From the NCBI GenBank assembly GCA_020161755.1, contig JAIUOS010000011.1, positions 1-64,000 of the forward strand: DNA of 64,000 nucleotides. The letters are read 5' to 3'. Position 1 is the stretch's first letter. Every line of letters starts with the position of its first letter. This DNA comes from Actinomycetota bacterium. Its GTDB lineage: Bacteria; Actinomycetota; Actinomycetes; Propionibacteriales; Propionibacteriaceae. The notes below the pieces were generated by a model. The model did not search any database. It was not told the origin of the DNA and saw nothing but the letters and a program-made list of their open reading frames with translations. Made by a program: the position numbers and the translations under genes. This document shows, piece after piece, positions 26,956 through 30,956 of the stretch.

Positions 26956-27744
26956 TCAGACCTCGCCGACGACGTCCAGTTCGTCGAGGGCGGGCAGCGC
27001 GTGCCCGGGGTAGGCGACCGGACGGGCCGGGACGCCCGCCACGGTGGTGAACGGCGCCACGTCCTCCAGCACGACGGAGCCGGCGCCGACCTTCGCGCCC
27101 TCACCGACCCGGATGTTGCCCAGCACCTTCGCGCCCGCGCCGATCATCACGCCGCGGCCGATCTTCGGGTGCCGGTCACCGCCGACCTTGCCGGTGCCGC
27201 CGAGGGTGACCTCGTGCAGCATCGAGAAGTCGTCCTCGACGACCGCGGTCTCGCCGATCACGACGGAGGTGGCGTGGTCGAACATGATCCCCTTGCCGAT
27301 CACGGCCCCGGGGTGGATGTCGACGGCGAAGACCTCCGAGATGCGGCTCTGGAGGAACAGGGCGAGGGCCGGACGCGCGTGCGTCCAGTAGTAGTGGGCG
27401 ACGCGGTACGCCTGGAGGGCGTGGAAGCCCTTGAAGAACAGCAGCGGCTGGGAGTACCCGCGGGTCGCCGGGTCGCGGCTGAGCACGGCCCGAAGGTCCT
27501 CGCGGACCGAGACGCCGATGCCGCGGTCGTCGTCGAACGCCGCGGTGATCAGCTCGCGCAGGCTCAGCGAGGTGATCGTCTCGCTGCCGAGCTTGCTGGC
27601 GAGGATGAAGCTGAGGGCGTCCTCCAGCCGGGTGTGGGAGAGGACGGTGGTGTGCAGGAAGCTCGCCAGCGCCGGCTCGGCCTGGGCGTCGGTGGCCACC
27701 TCGGTGCGGATCCGTGTCCACACGTCGTCGCGAAATGCGCTCAT
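26956..27744 (-). CDS. cysE: Serine O-acetyltransferase
   Basis: CysE (262 residues) acetylates serine to O-acetylserine, the first committed step of cysteine synthesis. The N-terminal helical domain (about 1-140) has the CysE-type SFILASKLGSE and LQAYRVAHYYW segments. The left-handed beta-helix follows: VDIHPGAVIGKGIMFDHATSVVIGETAVVEDD (catalytic Asp-His), then LGGTGK and HPKIGRGVMIGAGAKVLGN. This is the longer enterobacterial-type CysE with a full N-domain. It lies 20 bp after the thioredoxin-like gene, third in an operon behind a poly-Cys leader peptide, so its expression should rise when cysteine is scarce. Confidence 0.95.
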   Translation of the reverse strand: MSAFRDDVWTRIRTEVATDAQAEPALASFLHTTVLSHTRLEDALSFILASKLGSETITSLSLRELITAAFDDDRGIGVSVREDLRAVLSRDPATRGYSQPLLFFKGFHALQAYRVAHYYWTHARPALALFLQSRISEVFAVDIHPGAVIGKGIMFDHATSVVIGETAVVEDDFSMLHEVTLGGTGKVGGDRHPKIGRGVMIGAGAKVLGNIRVGEGAKVGAGSVVLEDVAPFTTVAGVPARPVAYPGHALPALDELDVVGEV

Positions 27745-27764: not shown

Positions 27765-28175
27765 TCAGTTGTCGATCAGCTGGAGTGCCTGGAGCACGTC
27801 CGGCTTGCGGGGAGCGCCGACGATGCGGTTGCGCACGACACCCTTGCTGTCCAGCAGGAGCACCGTGGGCGTCCGCGTGATACCGAGCTCGTCGGCCAGG
27901 TCGAGGCGCTGGGCTGCGTCGATCTCCACGTGGGCGACCCCCGGCGTGGCCGCGCTCACCTCGCCCAGGACGCGGGCGGTGGTGCGGCAGGGCGCGCAGA
28001 CCTCGGACGAGAACTGGACGAACGTCGCCCGGTGCCCGAACTCGTGCCCGATGCGGGCCGGGTCGAGACCGTCGTCGGCCGTGGCCGGACGGAGCCGTCC
28101 GTCCACCACGCGCCGGTACAGCCCGAACCCGAGGGCGAGCAGCACGGCTGCCGCGACCACCCATGCGCCGGTCAT
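27765..28175 (-). CDS. Membrane-anchored thioredoxin-like protein (CAPC)
   Basis: A 136-residue protein with one N-terminal membrane segment (WVVAAAVLLALGFGLY, about 5-20) and a thioredoxin fold. The active site reads EVCAPCRTT (Cys 60 and 63), a CAPC variant of CGPC. The cis-Pro region is GITRTPTVLLLD. It should act as a thiol reductase or as a carrier of sulfur equivalents. Its ATG overlaps the stop of the DUF4395 gene (ATGA) and cysE follows 20 bp later. The same gene pair is known next to sulfur metabolism genes in other actinobacteria. Confidence 0.9.
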   Translation of the reverse strand: MTGAWVVAAAVLLALGFGLYRRVVDGRLRPATADDGLDPARIGHEFGHRATFVQFSSEVCAPCRTTARVLGEVSAATPGVAHVEIDAAQRLDLADELGITRTPTVLLLDSKGVVRNRIVGAPRKPDVLQALQLIDN

Positions 28176-28645
28176 CGGGCGCTCCCCGCGGCCGCGGCGC
28201 GACGCCCGAGAAGGCGCTGGCCCAGCAGGTAGACCTCGCAGCCGAGGCAGAAGTCGAAGACCGCGTTCAGCAGGGCCGCGACCAGGGCGACGCCGACCGC
28301 GACGTAGAACAGGACCGGGACGGCGAACACGATGCCGAGGATGCCGAGCACGGCGAACCCGAGGCCGACGGCCTGGGCGAACCGGGGCGGACGCTCGTCC
28401 TCGAGGTCGTCGGGCGCGCCGAGGCGCGGCCGGACGAAGCGCCGGAAGAACCAGCCGTACGGCTGGTAGCGCAGGCCCAGCAGCGCGCCGGCGGCGAACG
28501 CGCCGGTCTGGAGGGCCAGCAGCACCAGGCCGAGGGCGGGGCCGGTGAGCAGGGTGGCCGCCAGCACCACGGAGGTGACGGCGGCGCCGAAGCGGGGGCC
28601 GCGCGGGTCGATGAGCGCGGCGGTCGGAGTGGAAGCGGTGGTCAT
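28172..28645 (-). CDS. DUF4395 membrane protein
   Basis: A 157-residue membrane protein of family DUF4395 with four hydrophobic segments. The conserved C-terminal FDFCLGCEVY holds a Cys pair (about 133 and 136) at a membrane edge, suggesting redox or sulfur chemistry together with the thioredoxin-like protein. The function has not been demonstrated. AGAGGA precedes ATG 28645. It is the first structural gene after the poly-Cys leader peptide, from which it is separated by 118 nt containing a GC-rich palindrome. Confidence 0.88.
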   Translation of the reverse strand: MTTASTPTAALIDPRGPRFGAAVTSVVLAATLLTGPALGLVLLALQTGAFAAGALLGLRYQPYGWFFRRFVRPRLGAPDDLEDERPPRFAQAVGLGFAVLGILGIVFAVPVLFYVAVGVALVAALLNAVFDFCLGCEVYLLGQRLLGRRAAAAGSAR

Positions 28646-28731
28646 TGGGGGAGTCCTCTGGTCGGTTGGTCACGGCGTGCGGCCAGCGGCAGACGCGGGG
28701 ACGTCCAGAGGTCGAGGATCTCGGATCGTCA

Positions 28732-28748
28732 CGCGGCCGGCGGCCGCG
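28732..28748 (-). promoter_or_regulatory. GC palindrome in the cysteine leader, possible attenuator hairpin
   Basis: CGCGGCCG and CGGCCGCG form a perfect palindrome around one base, 15 nt after the leader peptide stop codon on the minus strand. In RNA it could form a 5-6-bp stem with a 5-7-nt loop. No T-tract follows, so if attenuation occurs it may use Rho or occlude translation. This role is inference. Confidence 0.4.
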
Positions 28749-28763
28749 GCGATCAGGCTGCGG

Positions 28764-28844
28764 TCAGGCCAGGCGGCGACAACAACACATGCACGAAAGG
28801 ACGCGCGAGGAGCTCAGCGAAGCGGCGAGCCGGCGGGTGTGCAT
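28764..28844 (-). CDS. Poly-cysteine leader peptide (26 aa), cysteine attenuator
   Basis: A 26-codon frame begins MHTRRLAASLSSS and ends VLSCMCCCRRLA. Four of its last nine codons are cysteine, three of them consecutive TGT. A TACCCT box (28852-28857) ends exactly 7 nt before the ATG and there is no ribosome binding site, so it should be translated leaderlessly at the very 5' end of the mRNA. Leaderless poly-Cys peptides with a TRR start precede sulfur operons in mycobacteria and other actinobacteria. Ribosome stalling at the Cys codons when Cys-tRNA is scarce turns on the downstream genes. Here these are DUF4395, the thioredoxin-like gene and cysE. Confidence 0.9.
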   Translation of the reverse strand: MHTRRLAASLSSSRVLSCMCCCRRLA

Positions 28845-28961
28845 GCCCCCGAGGGTAACACGCGTCCCGACGGGCGCCGAAGCGGGCCGTCCGCCTGCTG
28901 GGCGGGGTGCCACCCGGACGGGGACAGGTGGGGTCCGCGGCCGGCAGGTAGGCTTCCTCCC
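28845..28961. promoter_or_regulatory. Divergent leaderless promoters: cysteine leader (-) and membrane protein/dsbA side (+)
   Basis: On the minus strand TACCCT (28852-28857) with a 7-nt spacer precedes the leader peptide ATG. On the plus strand TAGGCT (28949-28954) with a 7-nt spacer precedes GTG 28962. The 117 bp between the two start codons thus serve both transcripts. I see no strong palindrome here that would name a shared regulator. Confidence 0.7.
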
Positions 28962-29438
28962 GTGCAGTCGATGCGCGCGTGGCTCCTCCGCCCGGGCCTG
29001 CGGTCCCGGGTCGCTGCCGGCGTGCTCACGATCCTGGGCCTGGTGCCGCTGCTGCTGCAGCTGCCGCGGGTGACCGTGGTCGCCTGTTTCGACGCCGGCC
29101 ACCCGCTGTACGAGTGGATCCCGAGCACCCCCGCCGCCTTCGTGCACTGTGTCAGCGCCCCGACCCCTGCGGTCAGCTGGACGCTGATGATCGCCGCGAC
29201 GCTGGTGGTGCAACTGCTCCTGCTGCCGTTGCTGCTCACCGCCGGCGGGCTGCTGGTCCGGGCCGCCCGGCGTGCCGCGGCCGCCGCCGACCGCGTGCTG
29301 GCCGGCGCCCTGGTACGCCTCTCCGCCGTGCTCGTCCCCGAGCAGCGGCTCGTTCCGGTGCGCGTTCGTGCGCACTACCGGGGCGTGGACGCCGCGCAGG
29401 CACAGCGCCGCCGCGGGCCTCCGTCCTGCTCGATCTGA
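28962..29438 (+). CDS. Small membrane protein of unknown function
   Basis: A 158-residue protein with two membrane segments (VAAGVLTILGLVPLLLQL, about 17-34; LMIAATLVVQLLLLPLLLTAGG, about 72-93). The loop between them contains two cysteines (VVACFDAGHP and FVHCVSAP) and would face outside, where DsbA and VKOR act. The C-terminal half is basic and cytoplasmic. No family was recognised. GTG 28962 is preferred because TAGGCT lies 7 nt before it; ATG 28971 is the alternative. Genes for DsbA and VKOR follow 122 bp later on the same strand. Confidence 0.65.
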   Translation: MQSMRAWLLRPGLRSRVAAGVLTILGLVPLLLQLPRVTVVACFDAGHPLYEWIPSTPAAFVHCVSAPTPAVSWTLMIAATLVVQLLLLPLLLTAGGLLVRAARRAAAAADRVLAGALVRLSAVLVPEQRLVPVRVRAHYRGVDAAQAQRRRGPPSCSI

Positions 29439-29560: not shown

Positions 29561-30346
29561 ATGTCCAAGACTTCCAAGAACACCCCTGCGTCCTCCCCGG
29601 GAAGCCGGCGCGAGGCACTCCGCACCCAACAGCAGGCCCGGGCCCGGGCCGCCGCCCGCACCGGACGCGCCGTCAAGGCGGCCTGGATCGCCGGCCTCAC
29701 CGTGATCGCGCTGATGGTCGGCGTGATCGCGTGGACGCTGGTCCGCGCCGGCGGGCCGACCGCCGGCATCTCCGACTCCCTCACCGTGCCCGCCGGGGCG
29801 ACCAGCGGCGGGGCGGTGGTCGTCGGGCAGGCGTCCGCGCCCGTGACAGTGAGCGTGTACGCCGATTTCATGTGCCCCTGGTGCGGGCGGTTCGAACGCG
29901 CCAACGGCGACGCGCTGGCGAGCGCGGTCGAGGCCGGCACCGCCAAGCTGGAGATCCACCCGATGGCGTTCCTCGACGAGATGTCGGCGGGCACCCGGTA
30001 CTCCAGCCGCGCGGCGAACGCGTTCGTCACGCTCGCGAACGACGACCCGGCGGTCGCGTTCCGGTTCCACCGGCTGCTCTACGCCAACCAGCCCGCGGAG
30101 AACTCCGCCGGGTTGAGCGACGCCCGGCTGGCCGAGCTCGCCCAGGAGGCCGGCGCCACCCCGGCCATGACCGACCGCTTCGCCGCACAGACCTACGCGG
30201 GGTGGGTGGAGGACGCCACCCAGCAGGCCTGGGACGACGGCGTCACCGGCACGCCGACCGTCAAGATCAACGGCCAGACGTTCACCGGCGACCTGTTCAC
30301 CGCCGGTCCGCTGGCCGCCGCCATCGAGGCGGCCGCGCGTGGCTGA
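29561..30346 (+). CDS. DsbA-family extracytoplasmic thiol oxidase
   Basis: The 261-residue product has a basic N-terminus, a membrane anchor (AAWIAGLTVIALMVGVIAW, about 40-58) and a DsbA thioredoxin domain. Its active site is DFMCPWCGRFE (Cys 105 and 108) and the cis-Pro loop is GVTGTPTVKINGQ. It should introduce disulfides into exported proteins on the outer face of the membrane. The VKOR gene overlaps its last 8 bp, giving the actinobacterial oxidation pair in which VKOR re-oxidises DsbA. This is the anchored type common in actinobacteria. Confidence 0.92.
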   Translation: MSKTSKNTPASSPGSRREALRTQQQARARAAARTGRAVKAAWIAGLTVIALMVGVIAWTLVRAGGPTAGISDSLTVPAGATSGGAVVVGQASAPVTVSVYADFMCPWCGRFERANGDALASAVEAGTAKLEIHPMAFLDEMSAGTRYSSRAANAFVTLANDDPAVAFRFHRLLYANQPAENSAGLSDARLAELAQEAGATPAMTDRFAAQTYAGWVEDATQQAWDDGVTGTPTVKINGQTFTGDLFTAGPLAAAIEAAARG

Positions 30347-30956
30347 CGTGCTCGGACGGTTCAACCGGTTTCGGCAGACGAACCGGTGGATCTTCGCCAC
30401 CATGCTGTTCTCGGCCGCGCTCAGCCTGACCGCCTCGTTCGTGCTCTCGGTCGACGCGATCGCGCTGGCGAAGGACCCGCGCGCGGCGCTCTCGTGCAAC
30501 ATCAACGCGGTGCTGAGCTGCGGTACGGTCGGCAGCTCGTGGCAGGCCAGCCTGTTCGGCTTCCCGAACGCGTTCCTCGGGCTGGTCGCCGAACCGGTGG
30601 TGATCACGATCGCGGTGGCCGCGCTGGGCGGCGTCCGCTTCCCGCGGTGGTTCATGCTGTCCGCGCAGGTGGTCTACACGATCGGACTGGTGTTCGCGTA
30701 CTGGCTGTTCTTCCAGGCGTACTTCGTGATCGGGGCGCTGTGCCCGTGGTGCCTGCTGATCACGCTGTCGACCACCCTGGTGTTCAGCTCGCTGACCCAC
30801 GTGAACATCCGCGACGGCAACCTGTACCTGCCCGCGCGGGCCAGCTTGGCCGCCTGCCGGTTCACGGTGGCCGGGCTCGACGCCCTGCTCGTCGGGGTCT
30901 GGCTGATGGTCATCCTGACCATGGTCGTCACCAAGTACGGCCCCCTGATGGTCTGA
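30339..30956 (+). CDS. Vitamin K epoxide reductase (VKOR) family protein
   Basis: A 205-residue protein with about five membrane segments, the bacterial VKOR that replaces DsbB and passes electrons from DsbA to quinone. The loop cysteines lie in ALSCNINAVLSCGTVG (about 53 and 61) and the quinone-site pair in GALCPWCLL (135 and 138). The conserved FGFPNAFLGL segment contains a hydroxyl-free variant of the usual Ser/Thr region. GTG 30339 overlaps the dsbA stop by 8 bp, so the two are coupled. A hairpin lies shortly after the stop. Confidence 0.92.
   Translation: MADVLGRFNRFRQTNRWIFATMLFSAALSLTASFVLSVDAIALAKDPRAALSCNINAVLSCGTVGSSWQASLFGFPNAFLGLVAEPVVITIAVAALGGVRFPRWFMLSAQVVYTIGLVFAYWLFFQAYFVIGALCPWCLLITLSTTLVFSSLTHVNIRDGNLYLPARASLAACRFTVAGLDALLVGVWLMVILTMVVTKYGPLMV

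Follow-up and report, generated by a model that had tools for sequence, protein, structure and literature searches.

A 64,000-nucleotide stretch of DNA from a bacterium of the family Propionibacteriaceae (hereafter the window; it belongs to contig 11 in a draft genome of 61 contigs and 4.08 Mb) carries a short ORF, predicted to be leaderless, that ends in a run of Cys codons, directly in front of a presumed operon for a DUF4395 protein, a thioredoxin-like protein and the serine O-acetyltransferase CysE. Judged by its conservation in relatives, this leader is very probably a cysteine sensor, and we consider it highly likely that it serves the operon as a cysteine-responsive ribosome-stalling leader. 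The sensor part of this interpretation is well supported by how the leader is built and conserved, by its specific placement in the genome and by its biased codons, and we take the leader to be one branch of a system for attenuation by cysteine.

Table 1. Positions of the leader, the operon genes and two further Cys leaders of the same genome (window positions unless a locus is given).
Feature	Position	Strand	Basis
Extended -10 box TGTTACCCT	28852..28860	minus	sequence reading
Short ORF of 26 codons, predicted leaderless, MHTRRLAASLSSSRVLSCMCCCRRLA, and stop	28764..28844	minus	sequence; 6 further same-operon loci
Cys tract TGC ATG TGT TGT TGT (C-M-C-C-C), presumed ribosome-stall site	28779..28793	minus	four Cys codons invariant in 7/7 cysE-operon loci
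GC-rich inverted repeat	28732..28748	minus	15 nt past leader stop; sequence
DUF4395 protein gene	28172..28645	minus	PF14340 1e-40; AGAGGA upstream
Thioredoxin-like protein gene, motif CAPC	27765..28175	minus	PF00085 4e-8
cysE, serine O-acetyltransferase with SATase_N domain	26956..27743	minus	TIGR01172; PF06426 4.5e-37
Second Cys leader MTSTRPATMCCCCVPSMACCRMR, before metY-cysK-cysE2	L168 7914-7843	minus	TAGTCT 6 nt before ATG
Third Cys leader MNEPTRVVRALRNISAGSMCCAC, before sulfite/nitrite reductase gene	L202 6145	minus	sequence, relatives

Direct reading of the minus strand confirmed the proposed frame (28844-28764) and its ATG (28844-28842), which lies 7 nt after a TACCCT box (28857-28852); transcription is predicted to start at 28844, the A of this ATG. 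Inspection upstream of the ATG revealed no Shine-Dalgarno sequence, in line with the claim that the leader lacks a ribosome binding site. The frame comprises 26 codons followed by TGA at 28766-28764. The original prediction had the Cys run right and the end of the peptide wrong, since the peptide closes with CMCCCRRLA and not with CMCCCRR, from which the two last residues were lacking. The palindrome noted past the stop was also confirmed: its arms pair over 7 bp around a 3-nt loop (28748-28732), no T run comes after it, and 118 nt separate the leader stop from the DUF4395 start. Two ORFs of 12-45 aa in the window show such -10 spacing, and of these only the leader combines at least 3 Cys with a Cys-Cys pair close to the end. 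Across 30 order-2 Markov copies of the window, a comparable leader turned up once in total.

Profile searches bore out the identities proposed for the three downstream genes, with CysE scoring 234 bits against TIGR01172 (cut-off 210.65), while the cysE gene itself (26956-27743) falls outside the interval first assigned to the unit (28172-28857). The thioredoxin gene overlaps DUF4395 by 4 nt (ATGA). Near its C-terminus the DUF4395 protein carries the motif CLGCE (window 28235-28249, minus), which is invariant in 11 DUF4395 proteins; with the CAPC thioredoxin as partner, this motif hints that the two proteins form a pair for thiol relay or sulfur transfer. The opposite strand upstream of the leader (29561-30956, plus) holds genes for a DsbA-like thioredoxin-fold protein (PF13462) and then a VKOR-family protein (PF07884), possibly a disulfide-forming pair adjoining the thiol operon.

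Close relatives with the same operon were expected to keep the leader and its Cys codons while other sites drift. We found the DUF4395-thioredoxin-cysE arrangement at 7 loci (L001-L006 and L008), and the leader is present at 7 of 7. In the codon alignment the TGC and TGT-TGT-TGT codons are invariant at all three positions in every leader; they form the longest invariant block, most other codons drift, and 9 of 27 amino-acid columns are invariant. The cysE-type loci need one change on a DUF4395 tree of 42 rows (support 66/85, weak), and a single swap is likely. The third gene is often cysK in neighbouring lineages (for example in L035, TIGR01139 411 bits), and at some DUF4395 loci neither cysE nor cysK is next in line. 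On this comparison of gene content, the form of the operon with cysE belongs to a single clade, and several neighbours carry cysK in its place. At three loci from Nocardioides, Aeromicrobium and Actinomadura (L099, L153 and L125), DUF4395 is followed by genes for a larger and a short protein, which by eye resemble the mycobacterial cysA2-sseC pair.

The association was also tallied by hand across the family. Among 197 Propionibacteriaceae genomes searched, 48 encode DUF4395 at E<=1e-20, and the Cys leader lies directly upstream in 27 of these and further upstream in 8. In five of the 8 (L228-L232) the gene order is thioredoxin-DUF4395-cysK-like, with the leader upstream of the thioredoxin gene and the cysK-like identity at 39-43%. 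In G018 metY and cysK come first and the DUF4395-thioredoxin pair follows them in the same orientation, the leader preceding metY. The G116 leader sits at -597, where no further gene is apparent ahead of DUF4395, and G003, on a short contig, is counted by likeness only, its leader link being inferred from upstream sequence shared with G018 (93% over 883 nt). The leader was not found in the fetched DNA of 12 of 47 testable genomes; G021, of the same genus as the window genome, shows none before DUF4395 or metY.

In a wider survey, DUF4395 matches at E<=1e-3 were obtained in 40 of 60 relatives searched, the nearest named loci to the window being Propionibacteriaceae and Propionicimonas assemblies, and 130 loci were oriented and reduced to 100 distinct ones. 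Under a strict rule (an ORF linked to a -10 box, with Cys-Cys close to its end, at most 420 nt upstream of DUF4395), 21 of the 100 carry a leader directly upstream. A leader of the RRxVDxCR (Ms5788A-like) type was seen at 47, and 32 had neither type. These 32 include L085, with 163 nt upstream only, five loci with an RRxVDxCR leader about 2 kb upstream, and four more (L023, L115, L137 and L158) in which a looser scan found a two-Cys leader. By comparison, none of 789 regions of 320 nt taken upstream of other predicted genes qualified in an approximate control, which took gene starts from the longest ORF and did not catch the cysK leader of L095; the four control regions with at least 2 Cys all hold Ms5788A-like leaders. 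Away from the DUF4395 position, only 2 Cys-Cys leaders occur in 954,868 bases of both strands. One of the two, in L095 (Propioniciclava flava), is a separate Cys leader, MFRAARHHSSLCSAALTPVAARCCCR, directly upstream of cysK, about 2197 nt downstream of the DUF4395 match start. To judge from the 21 of 100 DUF4395 loci against 0 of 789 other upstream regions, the placement of the leader is not due to chance.

Twenty related leaders were selected by a TANNNT box 4-9 nt before the start, so that the -10 spacing is itself a selection criterion; within that range it is 6-7 nt in 20 of 20, and TGN precedes the box in 18 of 20. Their N-terminal sequences vary between lineages, and the terminal Cys run persists. 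Codon choice within this run is biased. The last eight codons of the 20 leaders contain 53 TGT versus 11 TGC, compared to 2 TGT versus 11 TGC among the earlier Cys codons of the same leaders and 69 TGT versus 334 TGC in other predicted ORFs of the same loci (comparing every Cys codon of the leaders with those of other ORFs, Fisher p = 1.5e-20, a significance overstated by the relatedness of the loci). Of 354 non-Cys leader codons, 275 have G or C in third position, and with one leader per peptide type (10 types) the count is 28 TGT versus 12 TGC. We read the TGT bias as selection at the presumed stall site, which might act through slow or sensitive decoding or through RNA pairing.

A non-exhaustive scan of the window genome found two further Cys leaders, both recurring in the genus. 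One precedes a metY-cysK-cysE cluster (metY TIGR01326, 620 bits; cysK TIGR01139, 449 bits) whose cysE is a second, short, EpsC-like copy (TIGR01172, 227.9 bits). We fetched 24 metY loci, 16 of them from the genus of the window genome; among the 15 testable genus loci, a leader with at least 2 Cys is present in 12 and Cys-Cys in 10, and none was seen at the 8 loci from other families. The other leader precedes a gene of the NirA/sulfite-reductase type (PF01077; no NCBIfam cut-off reached), which we name sirA from its cluster context, and two PF01507 genes follow, probably cysH and cysD. In the window genome 10 nt separate TAAGGT from the ATG of the sirA leader, whereas the leaders of relatives start one codon earlier, with ATG or GTG 7 nt past TAGGGT; because of this spacing the automatic -10 scan passed it over. 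The sirA gene occurs in 8 of 30 genus genomes, and a Cys leader in 7 of 7 sirA loci with upstream DNA, ending in SMCCA in 6. The original prediction of a cysteine-feedback loop through the cysE of the window was overstated in that this is not the sole control of the committed step: a second cysE exists under a second Cys leader, so the window operon is not the sole entry to cysteine synthesis, and the cysE form of the operon is confined to one clade among neighbours with cysK. These leaders raise the broader idea that in Propionibacteriaceae the sulfite reductase cluster, metY-cysK-cysE and the DUF4395-thioredoxin operons with cysE or cysK might form one ribosome-read regulon for the reductive sulfur and cysteine pathway, in which the peptide is freely replaced while terminal UGU codons are selected, so that the sensing element would be UGU itself and not cysteine alone, and in which cysteine would control both cysE copies without a dedicated protein regulator. 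We regard this as plausible, slightly short of an even chance.

For the window leader we propose that transcription would start at the A of the leader ATG and that ribosomes would bind directly at the 5' AUG, with no need of a Shine-Dalgarno sequence, to translate the short ORF. A shortage of charged tRNA-Cys would make them pause at the terminal C-M-C-C-C run, and the pause would alter the use of the 118-nt stretch and raise expression of DUF4395, thioredoxin and cysE; with plentiful cysteine the leader would be read through quickly and the operon kept low, as the mycobacterial precedent leads us to expect. Stalling would probably affect expression by controlling how accessible the DUF4395 ribosome binding site is; the chief alternative is Rho-dependent termination.

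In leaders of the mycobacterial kind, the ribosome binding site of the downstream gene is concealed in folded RNA except when ribosomes stall. Folding tests gave no support to such a switch here. In 20 leaders, blocking the Cys tract produced no rise in access to the DUF4395 ribosome binding site (Stouffer z = -1.0), and the window leader has no significant downstream complement to its Cys tract (z = -1.03). Individual complements at p<=0.015 were obtained only for the metY leaders L177, L181 and L182 and for the DUF4395 leaders L032 and L036; pooled, and uncorrected for kinship, the signal reached a Stouffer z of 3.3 for 20 DUF4395 leaders and 6.5 for 10 metY leaders, and a duplex-energy version omitting the last 20 nt gave -0.6. 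In 3 of the 10 metY leaders (L177 and the close kin L181 and L182) a 13-16 nt complement to the Cys tract sits just upstream of the metY ribosome binding site, the form that a binding-site switch would take; it is absent from the two tested leaders of the window genome. Excess structure after the leader stop was considered and set aside: the leaders alone gave a Stouffer z of -5.3, yet control intergenic regions were negative too (mean z -1.19 for the leaders vs -0.65 in 32 control regions, sd 1.6). A consensus fold of 6 leaders showed two-sided change in 1 of 33 pairs, and Rfam gave no match in the leader.

The same sensor could instead act on another output step, transcription, if a completed leader leaves the GC-rich stretch behind it untranslated and open to Rho or to an intrinsic terminator, and a ribosome stalled at the Cys codons keeps termination from occurring. 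The 118 nt of untranslated RNA, the GC-rich hairpin soon after the leader stop and the lack of any sign of a ribosome-binding-site switch in the folding tests are all compatible with such a scheme. However, the palindrome has no T-rich tail, and a scan of 28500-29000 found no intrinsic terminator after the leader, the repeat at 28748-28732 giving no site and the only terminator-like match (28806-28791, minus) lying inside the short ORF. The mycobacterial precedent is reportedly translational, and a 2022 review (PMC9031893) describes regulation of translation. We hold transcription attenuation to be possible, though less likely than not.

Two other explanations dispense with cysteine supply as the signal. 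The peptide might work through its amino-acid sequence, either by arresting the ribosome or as a small protein with a function, so that the Cys residues themselves matter, and MHT, a Leu and a Ser are indeed invariant in the N-terminal part of the 7 cysE-type leaders. Between lineages with the same first genes, however, the N-termini vary while the Cys run is kept, and the synonymous-site bias of the terminal Cys codons would be needless for protein function; we judge this explanation improbable. That the ORF arose by chance, with DUF4395 transcribed from another start, fits with TGYTGYTGY being no commoner in the genome than a reversed control (686 vs 742), but is contradicted by the specific placement and conservation of the leader and seems to us extremely improbable. 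Cysteine-responsive ribosome stalling remains our preferred reading, and the TGT bias offers a directly testable claim about which leader feature senses.

Classical attenuators such as the trp, his and leu leaders gauge the supply of the amino acid made by the operon through repeats of its codons. The window leader likewise repeats codons for the product amino acid, and differs from those attenuators in having neither a Shine-Dalgarno sequence nor a T-rich terminator after it. Polycysteine leaderless short ORFs of mycobacteria reportedly, from the work of Canestrari and colleagues, are cysteine-responsive attenuators. The window leader, predicted to be leaderless as well, shares with them a conserved Cys run near the end of the short ORF and a place immediately before an operon for sulfur or cysteine metabolism. 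It differs in its family, Propionibacteriaceae, and in a peptide that matches no NCBIfam model: against NF042933 and NF042934 it gave no match at E<=10 (0 NCBIfam families). NF042934 gave four matches in the window genome, none over its cut-off, and 10 of 14 control genomes match it too. By contrast, the RRxVDxCR leaders before DUF4395 resemble the Ms5788A family (NF042933), which four of them match at 1.5e-10, 5.4e-10, 3.6e-8 and 7.3e-5, with scores of 40.6 to 22.4 bits that lie below the curated cut-off of 45; one of the four reaches the cut-off of NF042934, a putative leader peptide (27.1 vs 27). Because of these NF042933 matches, the link between leader and DUF4395 extends well beyond Propionibacteriaceae. 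The tested models miss the window leader, and promoter spacing combined with a terminal Cys run could be used to annotate such leaders.

Shell et al. 2015 (PMC4633059) propose that leaderless ORFs upstream of cysA2 and nirA work by cysteine attenuation; those ORFs too are conserved, Cys-rich and placed before sulfur genes, but the genes downstream of them do not include cysE. A 2022 review (PMC9031893) cites Canestrari et al. 2020 (doi 10.1111/mmi.14498) for such ORFs regulating downstream translation by cysteine supply in M. smegmatis, and Smith et al. 2022 (PMC9094748) refer to that study in connection with six Cys-rich ORFs of M. tuberculosis. In the portions of the literature covered by our search, which did not extend to Canestrari et al. 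2020 and supports no claim of absence, no Cys leader before cysE was described. Operons of the window type carry cysE or cysK, which may set them apart from the mycobacterial ones. The proposed mechanism is thus of a kind already known from mycobacteria, to which the present analysis adds another family, different leader peptides and the presence of cysE or cysK in the operon. The case for ribosome-sensed control by cysteine thereby extends beyond mycobacterial sulfur operons to the first enzyme of cysteine synthesis and to another actinobacterial family, in which the leader peptides change while the Cys codons stay.
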